DNA of 64,000 bases from Arenibacter sp. P308M17 (GTDB taxonomy: Bacteria > Bacteroidota > Bacteroidia > Flavobacteriales > Flavobacteriaceae), in the NCBI RefSeq assembly GCF_003426735.1, contig NZ_QVON01000001.1, forward strand, positions 248,001-312,000, written 5' to 3'. This document shows, in pieces, positions 9,582 through 16,201 of this stretch (its first letter is position 1; each line of letters starts with the position of its first letter). The notes below the pieces were generated by a model, which was not told the origin of the DNA, made no database searches, and worked only from the letters and a program-made list of their open reading frames with translations. Both the position numbers and the translations under genes were made by a program.

Positions 9582-10859
9582 TTAATCCATTATAAACTTG
9601 GCGCCCAATTCAAAAATGCTGGCACTTAATCCGGTAGTTCTTTCGTATTGGTTAAACCTAAAACTAATGCTCTTTAATCCAAATTTCCACACTTTGCTCT
9701 GGGTAAAAATGTCCTTATAGGTAACGCCCAAGCCATATTGGCTGCTGTCAAAGCCCGAAAGGTCGTAATCCGAGGTGTAATATTCATAGGTGGACAAGGC
9801 CGTTTCCTTGGCGTAAAAATAATTGGAGGCAGTTTGGGTATAGTAACGGTACATAGGATATATCGTAAACTTATCCGATATTTTTACCGGTATTTCCAAA
9901 CTTCCCGTATAGGCGGTCACCCCCCAATCATCGTAATAGTATCTGAAATAGGCCCTAAGGCTTATAAGTTCGTTGAAATAGTATGAGATTCGGCCTCCTA
10001 GGGGAATTTTAAACCTACTTTCAGGCAATATTTCCACATTGTCCGCCAATTGAAACTCTTCTATAAAAAAGTTGTTCCTGTCCTGCAGATACACCCTTTG
10101 GTGCGGAGTGGACAGCAATCCTTCCTGAAAAATAAAGTCGAGCGAAAGGGATGCCTGAAAACGCTTGGTGATGATTTGGGAAAAAATAAGGGAAACGGAA
10201 TACGAATTCCGATTAAGTTTATCAAATTCATTGAAAAGGGGGGAATAGGTGCCGTTGCCACTGATTCGATTATCAAAAAAGCCTTCCCGTAATTCAATGG
10301 GGTACTGTGGTTTATAGGTATCCAGATATACTTGTCCGCTAATTCCCAATTCCGTATTTTTTTCGTTCATGAGATGGGTGTAGCCACCACCGAAGCCTAT
10401 GGAAAAATAATCATACTCTGCAGATACCGCAATATTGCCGCTAAGGATATTATTTCGATCCTTGGAGCTATGGGTAAAGGTGGGGTGAAAATAAGTTAGG
10501 GCATCACTTCTTGATGCGCCGGAGGAGGCTACCCACGGACTGGCCGTATTGTTGCCGTCAAAAGGGTTGATATTGCTGGAAGAAGCTGAGGTATAGGCCG
10601 ATATTCCAGCGTCCAGACTCAGAACATTATCCTCCCCAATAGGAATGCTCACAATGATCGTTGGGGTCATATCCGTCAATTTTTCTGTTCCCTCCCCACC
10701 CGTAACAGCGGCATTGTTTCCGTCCTGACTGTAATAACTATATAGCAGCTCCACTTCAGGGGTCTCCAAAACTTTTTTTATATATTCTTGATTGTTTTCT
10801 TGGGAAATTCCTGCCCATGAAACCATTCCAAAAAATAAGATACATCCTATTGCCTTCAT
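9582..10859 (-). CDS. DUF3570 outer-membrane protein
   Basis: This 425-residue protein matches what I recall of the DUF3570 family. A signal peptide (about 1-20) is followed by VELLYSYYSQDGNNAAVTGG (about 36-54), SAYTSASSSNINPFDG (about 87-102) and long amphipathic strands ending in an aromatic-rich C terminus, consistent with an outer-membrane beta-barrel. Residues 113-116 are SGAS (10512-10523), resembling the [ST]GA[ST] core to which ApbE attaches FMN. It starts 6 bp after DUF4266 and is last in the thioredoxin/ApbE/DUF4266/DUF3570 operon. The barrel is a reasonable prediction; flavinylation is inference. Confidence 0.85.
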   Translation of the reverse strand: MKAIGCILFFGMVSWAGISQENNQEYIKKVLETPEVELLYSYYSQDGNNAAVTGGEGTEKLTDMTPTIIVSIPIGEDNVLSLDAGISAYTSASSSNINPFDGNNTASPWVASSGASRSDALTYFHPTFTHSSKDRNNILSGNIAVSAEYDYFSIGFGGGYTHLMNEKNTELGISGQVYLDTYKPQYPIELREGFFDNRISGNGTYSPLFNEFDKLNRNSYSVSLIFSQIITKRFQASLSLDFIFQEGLLSTPHQRVYLQDRNNFFIEEFQLADNVEILPESRFKIPLGGRISYYFNELISLRAYFRYYYDDWGVTAYTGSLEIPVKISDKFTIYPMYRYYTQTASNYFYAKETALSTYEYYTSDYDLSGFDSSQYGLGVTYKDIFTQSKVWKFGLKSISFRFNQYERTTGLSASIFELGAKFIMD

Positions 10860-10865
10860 TCTATT

Positions 10866-11075
10866 TTAATTGCATCCGCAACCACCACCTGTTTTGCCCC
10901 CATTGGCCCCAGCAGCAGCTTCCCGATAAATATGAAAATTGGTTTCAAAGCGTTCCAGACTTTTGGTGGCCAAATCCATTTCTTCATCGTTGAGGTATAC
11001 TTTGTCGTATTCCTTTACCGCAACGCATGAGGATAGTGATAAAATGCCAATAATAGGAAGGATCAAATGTCGCAT
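10866..11075 (-). CDS. DUF4266 small lipoprotein with a C-terminal GGGCGC tail
   Basis: This 69-residue protein starts at ATG 11075, four bases after the ApbE stop; longer upstream starts would run into apbE. A signal peptide ends in LSSC (lipidated Cys17). The short mature chain ends in GGKTGGGCGCN, with two cysteines split by Gly at the very C terminus, the DUF4266 hallmark. Two close cysteines could bind metal, form a disulfide or take a modification. Its conserved company with ApbE, thioredoxin and DUF3570 suggests an envelope redox complex. The function is unknown. Confidence 0.82.
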   Translation of the reverse strand: MRHLILPIIGILSLSSCVAVKEYDKVYLNDEEMDLATKSLERFETNFHIYREAAAGANGGKTGGGCGCN

Positions 11076-11079
11076 AATG

Positions 11080-12069
11080 TTATTGGGTTTTGTTAAGTTC
11101 AATATTTTGGGAAGTGTGAATATTGTTTTGGTCATCAATAATAATGCATTCCACCCCTTTAATTTGGTCGATCATATTAAGTCCCGTTTCCGTTCCAGTA
11201 ATAAAAACGGAGGTAGCCAGCGCATCGCACAATTCGGCACTAAGGGCAAAAATGGTGACGCTTTGGATACCTGTGGAGGGGTATCCCGTTCTTGGGTCGA
11301 TAATATGGCTATATTTTACCCCATTAAAGGTGACGTATTTTTCATAATTACCCGAGGTGGCCACTGCTGCATTGACAACGGGGAACCAGGAGAAAATGTT
11401 GTCCTTGTTCAAAGGATTGGTTATGCCTACCATCCAATCCTTGCCGTCCGCTTGTTTCCCCCAAGTTGTCAGATCCCCGGAGGCATTGATTATTCCGGCT
11501 TTTACCCCTTCGGCCTTTAACATGCTCCTTACCTTATCGGCAGCATAACCTTTACCAATGGCCCCGAAACCTATTTTCATACCCTCCAATTTTAAAAATA
11601 CGGTTTGCGCCTTTTTGTCCAGTACAATATTTTGGTAGCCGATCTTGGCAACCGAATTTTTTATGGCCTCTTTAGAGGGCATTTGGGCCATACTGCCATC
11701 ATATTTCCAAACCTTGTCCATGGAGGCATAAGTAATATCGAAGGCACCGTCCGTAATTTTGGAAACGGTGATGCACCGTTCGATCAGATCTATTAATTCT
11801 TGATCTACTTTTACGGGTGATATGCCCGCATTTTTATTTATTTCAGAGGTTTGTGAGCTAGGGTTCCAGGAGGAAATCAACTTTTCAATTCTAGAAATTT
11901 CTTCAATGGCCATGTCTATATAATGGTTGGCAGCAGTTTCATCCGGGGCAACGATAGTAATATCGAACCTGCTACCCATTAACTTTGTAGTTCGTCTTTG
12001 TGCCTGTTCTTGGGGAAAAACGGTACCATAAACTAGAATGGCAATTGCCAATACCATTGGGATTTTCAA
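11080..12069 (-). CDS. apbE: FAD:protein FMN transferase (ApbE)
   Basis: The 329-residue ApbE-family protein carries the expected motifs: GAIGKGYAAD (169-178), NASGD (195-199), HIIDPRTGYP (255-264) and the metal-site segment CDALATS (281-287). An N-terminal hydrophobic signal (about 1-18) puts it in the periplasm, where ApbE moves FMN from FAD onto a Thr/Ser of target proteins. Its start overlaps the thioredoxin stop by 4 nt. No Nqr or Rnf subunit is nearby; the only neighbour with a target-like motif is DUF3570 (SGAS). Confidence 0.93.
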   Translation of the reverse strand: MKIPMVLAIAILVYGTVFPQEQAQRRTTKLMGSRFDITIVAPDETAANHYIDMAIEEISRIEKLISSWNPSSQTSEINKNAGISPVKVDQELIDLIERCITVSKITDGAFDITYASMDKVWKYDGSMAQMPSKEAIKNSVAKIGYQNIVLDKKAQTVFLKLEGMKIGFGAIGKGYAADKVRSMLKAEGVKAGIINASGDLTTWGKQADGKDWMVGITNPLNKDNIFSWFPVVNAAVATSGNYEKYVTFNGVKYSHIIDPRTGYPSTGIQSVTIFALSAELCDALATSVFITGTETGLNMIDQIKGVECIIIDDQNNIHTSQNIELNKTQ

Positions 12070-12500
12070 CCTTCAAACGATTTTAAAAGTGCTATATATT
12101 CTTTGACGGAAATATTCTTAAACCCGGTTTGGCCCAGAATATTGCCATTGGAATCCAAAACTAGCACCAAGGGGAAATATCCGTTTTTATTATACTTTTC
12201 TGCAAGTTGGGCGTTTTTCTTTTTTTGGTCTTCTTGGAGTTGGTTGGCTTTTTTTCGTGGAAAGTCTGCCCTTAGCATAATCCAATGGTCCTTGGCATAA
12301 TCCTGAAATTCTTGGGCCTGCCAAATACTTTTATCCAATTTTATGCAGGGCGCGCACCAATCGGAACCAGAGAAGACCATTACTATATTCCGGTTACTTT
12401 CTTTGGCCATTGCCGCTGCGGCGGACCAATCGGTTTCCCAGTTTTGAGCGGTTATTAGACTTGATATCAACAGCGCCATTATTAAAGTCCACTTCTTCAT
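12066..12500 (-). CDS. Secreted thioredoxin-fold protein (WCAPC)
   Basis: This 144-residue thioredoxin-like protein has a signal peptide (about 1-18, ending ITAQ) and an active site WCAPC (48-52). The cis-Pro region is YFPLVLVLD (about 108-116). It would act as a periplasmic disulfide reductase or isomerase. It is the first gene of the operon and overlaps apbE by 4 nt. A likely partner is the CGC tail of DUF4266. An FNR-like palindrome lies about 50 bp upstream. Confidence 0.88.
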   Translation of the reverse strand: MKKWTLIMALLISSLITAQNWETDWSAAAAMAKESNRNIVMVFSGSDWCAPCIKLDKSIWQAQEFQDYAKDHWIMLRADFPRKKANQLQEDQKKKNAQLAEKYNKNGYFPLVLVLDSNGNILGQTGFKNISVKEYIALLKSFEG

Positions 12501-12546: not shown

Positions 12547-12562
12547 CATGATAACTATCATG
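12547..12562. promoter_or_regulatory. CRP/FNR-like palindrome upstream of the thioredoxin/apbE operon
   Basis: CATGATA-ac-TATCATG is a 7-bp perfect inverted repeat containing TGAT-N4-ATCA, the core layout of FNR/DNR-type sites. Its centre is about 54 bp before the thioredoxin start codon, a suitable place for promoter control. No CRP/FNR regulator is encoded in the window. Confidence 0.5.
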
Positions 12563-14083: not shown

Positions 14084-16201
14084 TTAATTTTTCTTTGTAG
14101 TAATCTCTATAACTCCATTCTTTCCTTGTTTTCCATATTTCTTTGTAGTTTCAGCACCTGGCCTATAAGTAGTCGTGCTTTCAACCTCCGAATATTTCAA
14201 GGTGGGAACAAAATTCTTGCCCTTGTTTACACCGTTCACATAAATGACAGCTTTTTCCATTCCATTCCGTCTAAATGGGCTTAAGTCATAGATGTCATCC
14301 GGGTCGTTCATATTGATGCTATAACCAACCTTCCATTTGCTAATTTGAGTGGTTTCACCTTCATGTTTTATGACTTCAATACTTTCCACAGAGCCCGGTG
14401 TGTTGCCGTTTAGGTTGCCATTGGATTGTGGGTCACTGTTATTGTTGCCGGACTGGACCTTCCATTCACTTTTTTTGGAAGTAATTTCAATTACTCCATT
14501 TTTTTCTCCTTTTTTGCCGTATTTATTCAAGGCCGCGTCTCCTTTTAACACCTTCATGTTTTCGATTGAACTAGGGGGGATGGTACCAAAATTAAAATCC
14601 GAATCTTTTTCGACACCATCAATAATAAATAAAGGTTCCTTATCGGATTTAATGTAGGTGTAAGGATTGATTTGGGTATTTGCTGGGGTTTTGTCGACTG
14701 TTATCGCGTTATGATAACTTTTAGTCGTAATCTCTATAGCACCATCTTTTGCTTTTTCACCGTATTTATTGGTAGCCGTAGCTCCTTTTACTACATTAAT
14801 ACTGTGTATGTCCGCAGGGTCAACTTCACTGGCCTTTGAGTCCTTAGTTGCCTTAACTCCATTTATAATGATCATTGGGTCTGTTGGGACTGAATTATTC
14901 GTCGTTGGTGATGCCTTGATATGGATTGTTTCAGGATTAGGATTAGTTTTTCGAATTTGGTTATAGGTTTTAAGTCCATCTAGGTTATCATATTGGTCCG
15001 ACCCATGACCCATAGAAATAATTTTACCATCCTTATCGGCTTCAACATATAATGAAAATGGTTTTATACCACTCTGGTCATTAAATGTATTGGTGCCGGT
15101 GATGGTAGAATTGTCAGCTTTGGATACGGTGAACGACGATGATATATTTATGATCACTCCTATTTGGTTTCTCTTAATGTCTGTAAAAGATTGGGAAATG
15201 TTATAAACTCTTTTAAGGGTGCTGGTTATCTTTTCCAAATCTTCATCTGAAGTATTTCTATCAATTGTAAACTCAACTTTGGTGGTTTCGTTGCTACCGT
15301 TTACTAATGATGATTCCTGTATGTTAGTTGAGGAATTTACCTTTGTAACCGTTTTAGTATTAAATGCTAGTAAAAAGAAGGCAAGGCCAGGAATTACAAG
15401 ACTAAATTTCCAGGCTTTGAATTTGTTTGATCTGTTTTTGTTTAACATGACGATTCGTTTTTTGATTGATGATGTATAAAATGGATTGATAATTGATGAA
15501 TATTGTTGTTCTGCTGAGGAATTTTTTAGTAATAGGTATTGATATTCCTTAGAGTTGTCCATTTTTTTTGTAGCACAATGGTCCGCTATATATTCCAAAT
15601 TTTGTGTTAGTGATTTTTTGTAAAGCCATACAAAGGGATTTACCCATTGAAACGCAGAAAATAACTGGATCAACAAAATATCTATGGAATGCCATTGAAG
15701 CACGTGTATTTTTTCATGGGCAATGATTTTTTCCAATTCATCTGTCCGGTGCATGTCCGGATTGTAAACGATGAGATTGAAAAAGGAAAAGGGAGAAGTG
15801 TTGGTTTTGGACTCTATATATTTAAAGTCTTTATCATTAATAATGGTTCCTTGTTTTATCAAGCGCCTTAATGATAATAGTTGAACTCCAAGTCGTCCCA
15901 GAAAAAGGAGTACACCACAGGCGTATAGTATTGCAATTATGTTCCACCTATTAAGTGTAGTAGCGCTTATGGGAGTGGATTCCATAGTCGGGGATTCGGT
16001 CAAAGTTAAGGGTAGGGGGTCTACCAGAATAATCTCGGTAAGCGTCCAGATAGGAAAAATTAGGGCCATGACAATCCCCAAAATCAGAAAAACCCTATGG
16101 AAGGTTAAAAAGGTCTCCTTTTCCAGGAAAAGTTTAAAGCAGCACCAAAAAAGACCAAGAATACCACTGCTTTTTACCAGGTATATAAGGAAATCTTCCA
16201 T
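14084..16201 (-). CDS. BlaR1-like M56 metallopeptidase with three TonB-plug-like repeats
   Basis: The 705-residue protein begins with membrane helices (about 4-23, 36-58, 87-110), then an M56 zinc protease with HEKIH (162-166) and a downstream LEYIADHCA (202-210), and a further helix at about 265-282. The extracytoplasmic C-terminal part contains three segments resembling SusC plug domains: about 441-494, 522-575 and 650-703, each with a [VI][IF][IY][VI][ND]GV core and a KYGxxxxxGxIEIT ending. Its start shares one base with the BlaI stop. It probably senses an envelope signal and cleaves the BlaI-like repressor. The sensor ligand is unknown. Confidence 0.87.
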   Translation of the reverse strand: MEDFLIYLVKSSGILGLFWCCFKLFLEKETFLTFHRVFLILGIVMALIFPIWTLTEIILVDPLPLTLTESPTMESTPISATTLNRWNIIAILYACGVLLFLGRLGVQLLSLRRLIKQGTIINDKDFKYIESKTNTSPFSFFNLIVYNPDMHRTDELEKIIAHEKIHVLQWHSIDILLIQLFSAFQWVNPFVWLYKKSLTQNLEYIADHCATKKMDNSKEYQYLLLKNSSAEQQYSSIINPFYTSSIKKRIVMLNKNRSNKFKAWKFSLVIPGLAFFLLAFNTKTVTKVNSSTNIQESSLVNGSNETTKVEFTIDRNTSDEDLEKITSTLKRVYNISQSFTDIKRNQIGVIINISSSFTVSKADNSTITGTNTFNDQSGIKPFSLYVEADKDGKIISMGHGSDQYDNLDGLKTYNQIRKTNPNPETIHIKASPTTNNSVPTDPMIIINGVKATKDSKASEVDPADIHSINVVKGATATNKYGEKAKDGAIEITTKSYHNAITVDKTPANTQINPYTYIKSDKEPLFIIDGVEKDSDFNFGTIPPSSIENMKVLKGDAALNKYGKKGEKNGVIEITSKKSEWKVQSGNNNSDPQSNGNLNGNTPGSVESIEVIKHEGETTQISKWKVGYSINMNDPDDIYDLSPFRRNGMEKAVIYVNGVNKGKNFVPTLKYSEVESTTTYRPGAETTKKYGKQGKNGVIEITTKKN

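Follow-up and report, generated by a model that had tools for sequence, protein, structure and literature searches.

What can a thioredoxin, a flavin transferase, a tiny lipoprotein and an outer-membrane barrel have to do with each other? The question is raised by four genes of Arenibacter sp. P308M17 within the window analysed here, i.e., the whole stretch of 64,000 nucleotides from position 248,001 to 312,000 of contig NZ_QVON01000001.1 (GCF_003426735.1). On the minus strand, from 12500 to 9582 of the window, they follow each other in the order thioredoxin, ApbE, DUF4266 and DUF3570, with gaps of -4, 4 and 6 nucleotides. The initial annotation had noted this tightly spaced set, which is confirmed by the coordinates and by Pfam. 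It read the operon as an envelope thiol/flavin redox unit in which ApbE attaches flavin mononucleotide (FMN) to one member. This is right in outline; it had, however, already been published in 2021.

Méheust et al. (eLife; PMC8238504) described the same four-gene set and reported DUF3570 as the ApbE substrate. In E. coli, the cognate ApbE flavinylates the DUF3570 of Chlorobium luteolum, and the modification is lost only if both predicted sites are changed (PMC8238504). The earlier statement that no known ApbE client is nearby is therefore outdated: DUF3570 itself is the client. DUF4266 and the thioredoxin were also considered as FMN clients. Both were rejected; DUF3570 is the client that has been shown, and neither of the two contains an [S/T]GA[S/T] motif, as judged by eye. 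The same paper lists 316 clusters of ApbE, DUF3570, a PF13899 thioredoxin and DUF4266 without DsbD, and 285 DsbD flavinylation clusters. It proposes that the CXC of DUF4266 may undergo redox cycling and that DsbD supplies a thioredoxin/flavin hybrid with electrons. In its words the function of the gene set "remains uncertain", and the direction of electron flow in flavinylated systems is open in principle (PMC8238504). All four Pfam families of its DsbD-free unit, PF02424, PF12094, PF13899 and PF14086, are present in the operon of the window. Membership in the published ApbE/DUF3570/thioredoxin/DUF4266 flavinylation system is thus secure, and the operon is a further member of a system of known kind. 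Our additions are a proposed outer-face position of the flavins, an [S/T]SAS site and an association with Rieske proteins; the supplements or Fig. 3C of PMC8238504 may already show the last two.

Among Creative Commons (CC)-licensed full texts in PubMed Central (PMC), no other paper names DUF3570, DUF4266, PF12094 or PF14086, and none of the few papers listed there on flavinylation or ApbE deals, by its title or the opening of its abstract, with an outer-membrane flavin barrel. PMC9331221 does no more than cite Méheust et al. Models of FMN-bind, NqrB/RnfD, DUF2271, Flavodoxin_4 and FMN reductase are named in a survey of flavinylated structures from 2024 (PMC11334425); DUF3570 does not occur in its text. 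Neither NCBIfam nor PHROGs yielded a match for DUF4266 or DUF3570.

By the terms of the initial annotation, a lack of co-occurrence of the genes in other genomes would have refuted the proposed unit. The genes do co-occur. Of 296 genomes of the Bacteroidota, 86 contain DUF3570 and 83 contain DUF4266; all of these 83 have DUF3570 as well, and three genomes (G269, G281 and G332) have DUF3570 without DUF4266. Seventy DUF3570 regions were inspected more closely: 20 of the 21 places outside the window's own genome that a first search had found (one at a contig edge was dropped), 39 further listed places outside the family labelled f31, and 11 places from f31. The latter represent 11 of 49 f31 genomes, and f31 is therefore under-sampled in all counts out of 70 regions and out of the 76 DUF3570 proteins, i.e., 75 from these regions plus that of the window, which make up the 76 rows of alignment A1. 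The open reading frames of the regions were called by a simple longest-frame script, which may overlook small genes. ApbE occurs in 66 regions, DUF4266 in 67, a thioredoxin-like protein in 63 and all four families in 59, and 48 of the 70 show the gene order of the window on one strand. Among the frames called in this way, no thioredoxin was found in L061, L064, L099, L111 and L116. The usual order in f31, at a guess a Bacteroidales-like group, is thioredoxin-like protein, DUF4266, DUF3570, ApbE and then DsbD. DUF3570 is often in tandem there (e.g., L118 and L128), with up to nine matches per genome, some of which are pieces of one gene. Within the genus of the window, 11 of 17 other genomes contain DUF3570, and the window's own genome has a single match. 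The eleven closest named loci all belong to Arenibacter and are 86-90% identical over the barrel.

Where is the flavin attached? The published ApbE motif is D-x-x-[S/T]-G-A-[S/T] (PMC12052999, PMC10722498); PMC8238504 writes "[S/T]GA[S/T]-like" in places and reports two [S/T]GA[S/T] motifs for DUF3570. The protein of the window has one canonical motif, SGAS (residues 113-116; site 2). The other, TSAS (90-93; site 1), lies in register with DSVSGAS of the f31 homologues. Over the 76 rows, site 1 reads [S/T]SAS in 52, [S/T]GAS in 16, SAAS in three and ASAS in three, and is unaligned in two (L114 and L115). Its column holds D[S/T]V[S/T]GAS in 16 f31 rows, DHYTSAS in many others and SAYTSAS in the window; an Asp occupies position -6 in 46 of 76, and a Ser in the window. 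It is the most conserved site: Ala92 is invariant and Ser93 is retained to 97%. As many as 27 of the 76 proteins lack [S/T]GA[S/T] altogether, and ApbE is present in the regions of all 27. Most simply, [S/T]SAS would be a site of flavinylation as well. One may, of course, suppose that only Ser116 of SGAS carries FMN in the window protein and that TSAS with its Ser93 is structural. The published motif has Gly, a Gly-to-Ala exchange in the motif of a model substrate leaves about 50% flavinylation (PMC12052999), and the window lacks the Asp at -6. In view of the near-complete conservation of Ala92 and Ser93, the shared column with the canonical f31 sequences and the ApbE in the region of every DUF3570 without a canonical motif, we nevertheless regard this as rather unlikely. 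A search for [S/T]GA[S/T] only would miss the 27 proteins, and perhaps other ApbE clients as well.

The fold of DUF3570 was predicted. An AlphaFold model built with the 76 sequences has 16 strands, a mean predicted local distance difference test score (pLDDT) of 87.9 and a predicted template modelling score (pTM) of 0.83. A second model, that of the f31 protein of L124, which is just 18-21% identical, again shows 16 strands with a mean pLDDT of 86.2. DUF3570 thus comes out as a 16-strand barrel in two predictions. By sequence no solved relative was found, the best match being a ribosomal protein with an E value of 0.24. All 50 structure matches shown by Foldseek and VIA-align are outer-membrane barrels. 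VIA-align gave Z 21.4 to an integrative BamA model (9a2o; 275 residues, root mean square deviation 3.4), 20.9 to a polysaccharide secretin (4y25; 252 residues, 3.1) and 20.8 to PelBC (9h80; 271 residues, 3.7), targets that we take to be of the 16-strand class.

In both models strand 3 is followed by a loop that carries both flavin motifs. On the side of this loop are the long loops, together with a few short ones; the turns on the opposite side comprise 2-8 residues. In outer-membrane barrels, the N and C termini are periplasmic; the loop after strand 3 would therefore be extracellular loop 2, and the flavins would face the outside. The lumen points in the same direction. Among its lining positions, assigned from hydrophobic alternation, at least 85% conservation is reached by 16 of 54 in the outer and by 2 of 52 in the inner half (p 5e-4; first model). 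The second model with its own alignment yields 20 of 56 and 1 of 52, respectively (p 4e-6). The two tests share overlapping, related sequences and are not independent, and the test ignores kinship. The conserved residues include Arg282, Arg306, Tyr308, Asp310, Arg338, Gln342, Glu148 and Asp180; we take them, on the models, to form a site beneath loop 2 that would bind the flavin rings together with an external acceptor. The same genes could also make up a periplasmic reductase, with flavins facing the periplasm and no role across the outer membrane; the barrel would then be inserted, or its loop folded, in such a way that FMN is accessible from the inside only. ApbE and thioredoxin look periplasmic from their N-termini, which are signal-like by eye in both, and the passages of PMC8238504 drawn on here assign DUF3570 no position in or across the outer membrane. 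Such an arrangement is improbable, since each of the two models puts both motifs on the side of the long loops and the conserved lumen residues crowd the very half that holds the motifs.

The thiols of the set are the proposed route of electrons to the flavin. The thioredoxin homologues of fewer than 220 residues in the fetched loci contain CxxC without exception (60/60). Equally constant is the end of DUF4266: in 69 of 69 matches from the regions it consists of CxC plus at most four residues, and a simple lipobox pattern fits 56 of them. In the window the lipobox is LSSC by eye. The initial annotation rightly saw a tiny lipoprotein, yet its sequence does not end in GGGCGC: one Asn follows, and the true terminus is GGGCGCN. 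DUF3570 itself has no Cys at or beyond aligned residue 30 in 70 of 76 proteins. A disulfide exchange of thioredoxin with those DUF3570s is therefore impossible, and the electrons of the thiols probably pass through the CGC tail of DUF4266, as judged from the sequences. A lipid anchor and a Gly-rich tail could allow DUF4266 to extend into the barrel from its periplasmic end.

As to the source of electrons, DsbD passes reducing equivalents outward across the inner membrane. A neighbour of DsbD length occurs in 10 of the 70 regions; by Pfam, DsbD_TM is found in neighbours in L065, L118 and L124, and also in the window's own genome, which suggests DsbD as the source. The operon has no transmembrane electron donor, and the only DsbD_TM match of the genome is on contig C12, the operon being on contig C1. 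The unit is therefore unlikely to be "self-contained", as had been presumed.

Put together, these observations favour a DsbD-free member of the system that works as a flavin relay at the outer face of the outer membrane, a reading to which we assign a probability of about 0.5. In the periplasm, before the barrel has folded, ApbE would couple FMN to Ser93 and Ser116 of DUF3570. Once the barrel is inserted, extracellular loop 2 would carry the two flavins, within or above the outer vestibule of the 16-strand barrel, the lining of which would consist of conserved Arg, Tyr, Asp, Glu and Gln. Electrons would reach the thioredoxin from the inner membrane, with DsbD, encoded elsewhere, as donor; in some relatives cytochrome b561 and a Rieske protein are perhaps the inner-membrane donors. 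The thioredoxin would reduce the CGC at the tip of the DUF4266 tail, which would enter the barrel from below, and the CGC would reduce FMN. The FMN, finally, would reduce an external acceptor, plausibly ferric iron.

A number of observations weigh against this relay. Six of the 76 DUF3570s do have a Cys past aligned residue 30. The loop 90-119 has a pLDDT of about 60, with residues 113-115 under 50, and the place of the flavins in the lumen is inferred from such a model; the barrel is oriented here by the topology usual for outer-membrane barrels rather than by data. The contact of DUF4266 with DUF3570 and the outward flow of electrons are likewise inferred. One or two of the four families are missing from 11 of the 70 regions, and two (L114 and L115) have DUF3570 and DUF4266 but neither ApbE nor thioredoxin within 14 kb. 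The thiol partner also varies: in L124, Pfam assigns the small thiol protein to the Redoxin/AhpC-TSA type instead of Thioredoxin_7. Nor do the neighbours in the window, an esterase and a GSDH-like protein, inform on function.

A different role of the thiols has to be considered. The CGC of DUF4266 might bind Cu or Fe, DUF3570 being a channel for the metal or a metallophore, the flavin adjusting the redox state of the metal and thioredoxin protecting the CGC thiols. VIT1 is found in 10 of the 70 regions and is reported for 25 DUF3570 clusters (PMC8238504). It was not found in the other 60 regions, however, and the DUF3570 positions conserved to at least 85% comprise no His, Met or Cys, which makes a metal channel quite unlikely. 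Least probable is an inward flow, in which the barrel would oxidise an external substrate and deliver electrons via CGC and thioredoxin to the periplasm: the direction is open in principle (PMC8238504), but the pairing with DsbD, an exporter of reducing equivalents, speaks against it.

The outer-face relay has a more general, and more tentative, version, which we would rate at less than even odds. DUF3570 may be a haem-free flavin conduit of the outer membrane that has spread through the Bacteroidota as a counterpart of the porin-cytochrome conduits, with two covalent FMNs in its outer mouth that are reduced through the barrel by the flexible CGC tail of the lipoprotein. The attachment motif would then have to be written [S/T][G/S/A]A[S/T]. 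If the flavins are indeed on the outer face, electrons could be exported through the outer membrane without haem, which would be relevant to iron acquisition and extracellular respiration.

Features of the operon in the window (positions of the window; matches are to Pfam)
Feature	Position	Strand	Details
Thioredoxin-like protein (Thioredoxin_7)	12066..12500	-	144 amino acids; PF13899, E 7.2e-15, 55.3 bits
Thioredoxin active-site CAPC (Cys49, Cys52), in WCAPC	12345..12356	-	from sequence
ApbE, FAD:protein FMN transferase	11080..12069	-	329 amino acids, TTG start; PF02424, E 6e-85, 285.4 bits
DUF4266 lipoprotein	10866..11075	-	69 amino acids; PF14086, E 2.6e-19, 70.3 bits
DUF4266 C-terminal Cys-Gly-Cys	10872..10880	-	from sequence; conserved
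DUF3570, predicted 16-strand outer-membrane barrel and predicted FMN carrier	9582..10859	-	425 amino acids; PF12094, E 1.6e-35, 123.2 bits (cut-off 25)
Predicted FMN site 1, TSAS (Thr90-Ser-Ala-Ser93), just after strand 3	10581..10592	-	alignment A1, AlphaFold model
Predicted FMN site 2, SGAS (Ser113-Gly-Ala-Ser116), same loop as site 1	10512..10523	-	from sequence, AlphaFold model

The surroundings of DUF3570 in other genomes offer some further hints. A Rieske-like gene (one sequence cluster) is present on the same strand in 12 of the 70 regions; in 11 it directly precedes the thioredoxin gene and in the twelfth apbE. Pfam identified Rieske in all four of the twelve that were tested (L073, L084, L101 and L103); the second Cys of the iron-sulfur motif is missing from the L101 copy. 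The word Rieske is absent from the main text of PMC8238504. Cytochrome b561 occurs in five of the 70 regions; it and VIT1 were recognised as sequence clusters, with one of each tested by Pfam. In L103 and L106, b561, VIT1, Rieske, thioredoxin, ApbE, DUF4266 and DUF3570 stand in a row. This hints at a second entry of electrons, from quinol, and at a link to iron, for relatives rather than for the window. The esterase (c5, 11 loci) and the GSDH-like protein (c8, 9 loci) were tried as guides to function and rejected: they recur only in the same-genus regions L067-L077 and therefore reflect synteny. L114 and L115 carry DUF3570 with TGAT/TGAS motifs beside a protein with CxxCH motifs, in which Pfam detects a hydrazine-synthase-alpha middle domain (L114); they are possibly a haem-linked version of the set.

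The operon may be under redox control. The inverted repeat CATGATAACTATCATG lies at 12547-12562, about 60 nucleotides upstream of the thioredoxin gene. In L065 and L091, TTGATAAATATCAA is found about 70 nucleotides upstream of the thioredoxin, and a Crp/Fnr-type gene is nearby (the L091 protein by Pfam). The repeat is only partly kept among the Arenibacter regions. Of 61 upstream regions, 6 reach 10 of 12 positions where mononucleotide shuffles would lead one to expect 2.3, which permits no conclusion for the window.

The genome contains four ApbEs and one FMN_bind protein. In a tree the ApbE of the window groups with the ApbEs of other DUF3570 operons. The sole FMN_bind match, NqrC-like, belongs to an apparently complete nqr operon on contig C21 with an ApbE of its own (names by eye). 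A further apbE lies on contig C20 (L132:6834-7847) beside DUF1549/DUF1501-like and cytochrome-like proteins (by eye). On contig C2 (L130:6222-7908), a Rieske gene (Pfam) and apbE stand where L062 and L084 have the full operon; the flanking genes are the same, by eye glutamine synthetase and a PurM-like protein on one side and PrfA-like and PyrF-like proteins on the other. The C2 ApbE clusters with its counterparts in L062 and L084 (100/100 for the three) and not with that of the window. A tblastn search of the C2 site with thioredoxin, DUF4266 and DUF3570 revealed nothing convincing; the best DUF3570 piece (E 0.004) is inside apbE on the opposite strand. Because the full operon has these flanks elsewhere and no trace of the three other genes is seen, a second operon has probably been reduced to Rieske and ApbE at C2. 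An ABC-transporter-like frame (by eye) adjoins this pair. Elsewhere in the window, at 14084-16201 on the minus strand, a 705-residue protein joins a BlaR1-type M56 peptidase to TonB-plug and SusC-signature pieces.

How does the operon compare with known systems? Closest are the DsbD-free clusters of PMC8238504, with which it shares all four Pfam families, the C-terminal CXC of DUF4266 and the lack of DsbD. They are reported to have two [S/T]GA[S/T] motifs, whereas the window has one SGAS and one TSAS with Ser in place of Gly. The DsbD flavinylation systems (PMC8238504) comprise the same four proteins, and the window operon differs by having no DsbD (PF02683) alongside. The Nqr complex of contig C21 has in common the covalent, ApbE-dependent FMN. 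Nqr and Rnf, however, contain an FMN_bind subunit (NqrC) and inner-membrane subunits, none of which is encoded in the operon. Porin-cytochrome conduits of the MtrCAB type carry electrons through an outer-membrane barrel. In contrast, the four proteins of the window are free of the CxxCH haem motif (by eye), and the carrier would be a covalent flavin on the barrel itself together with a dithiol tail.

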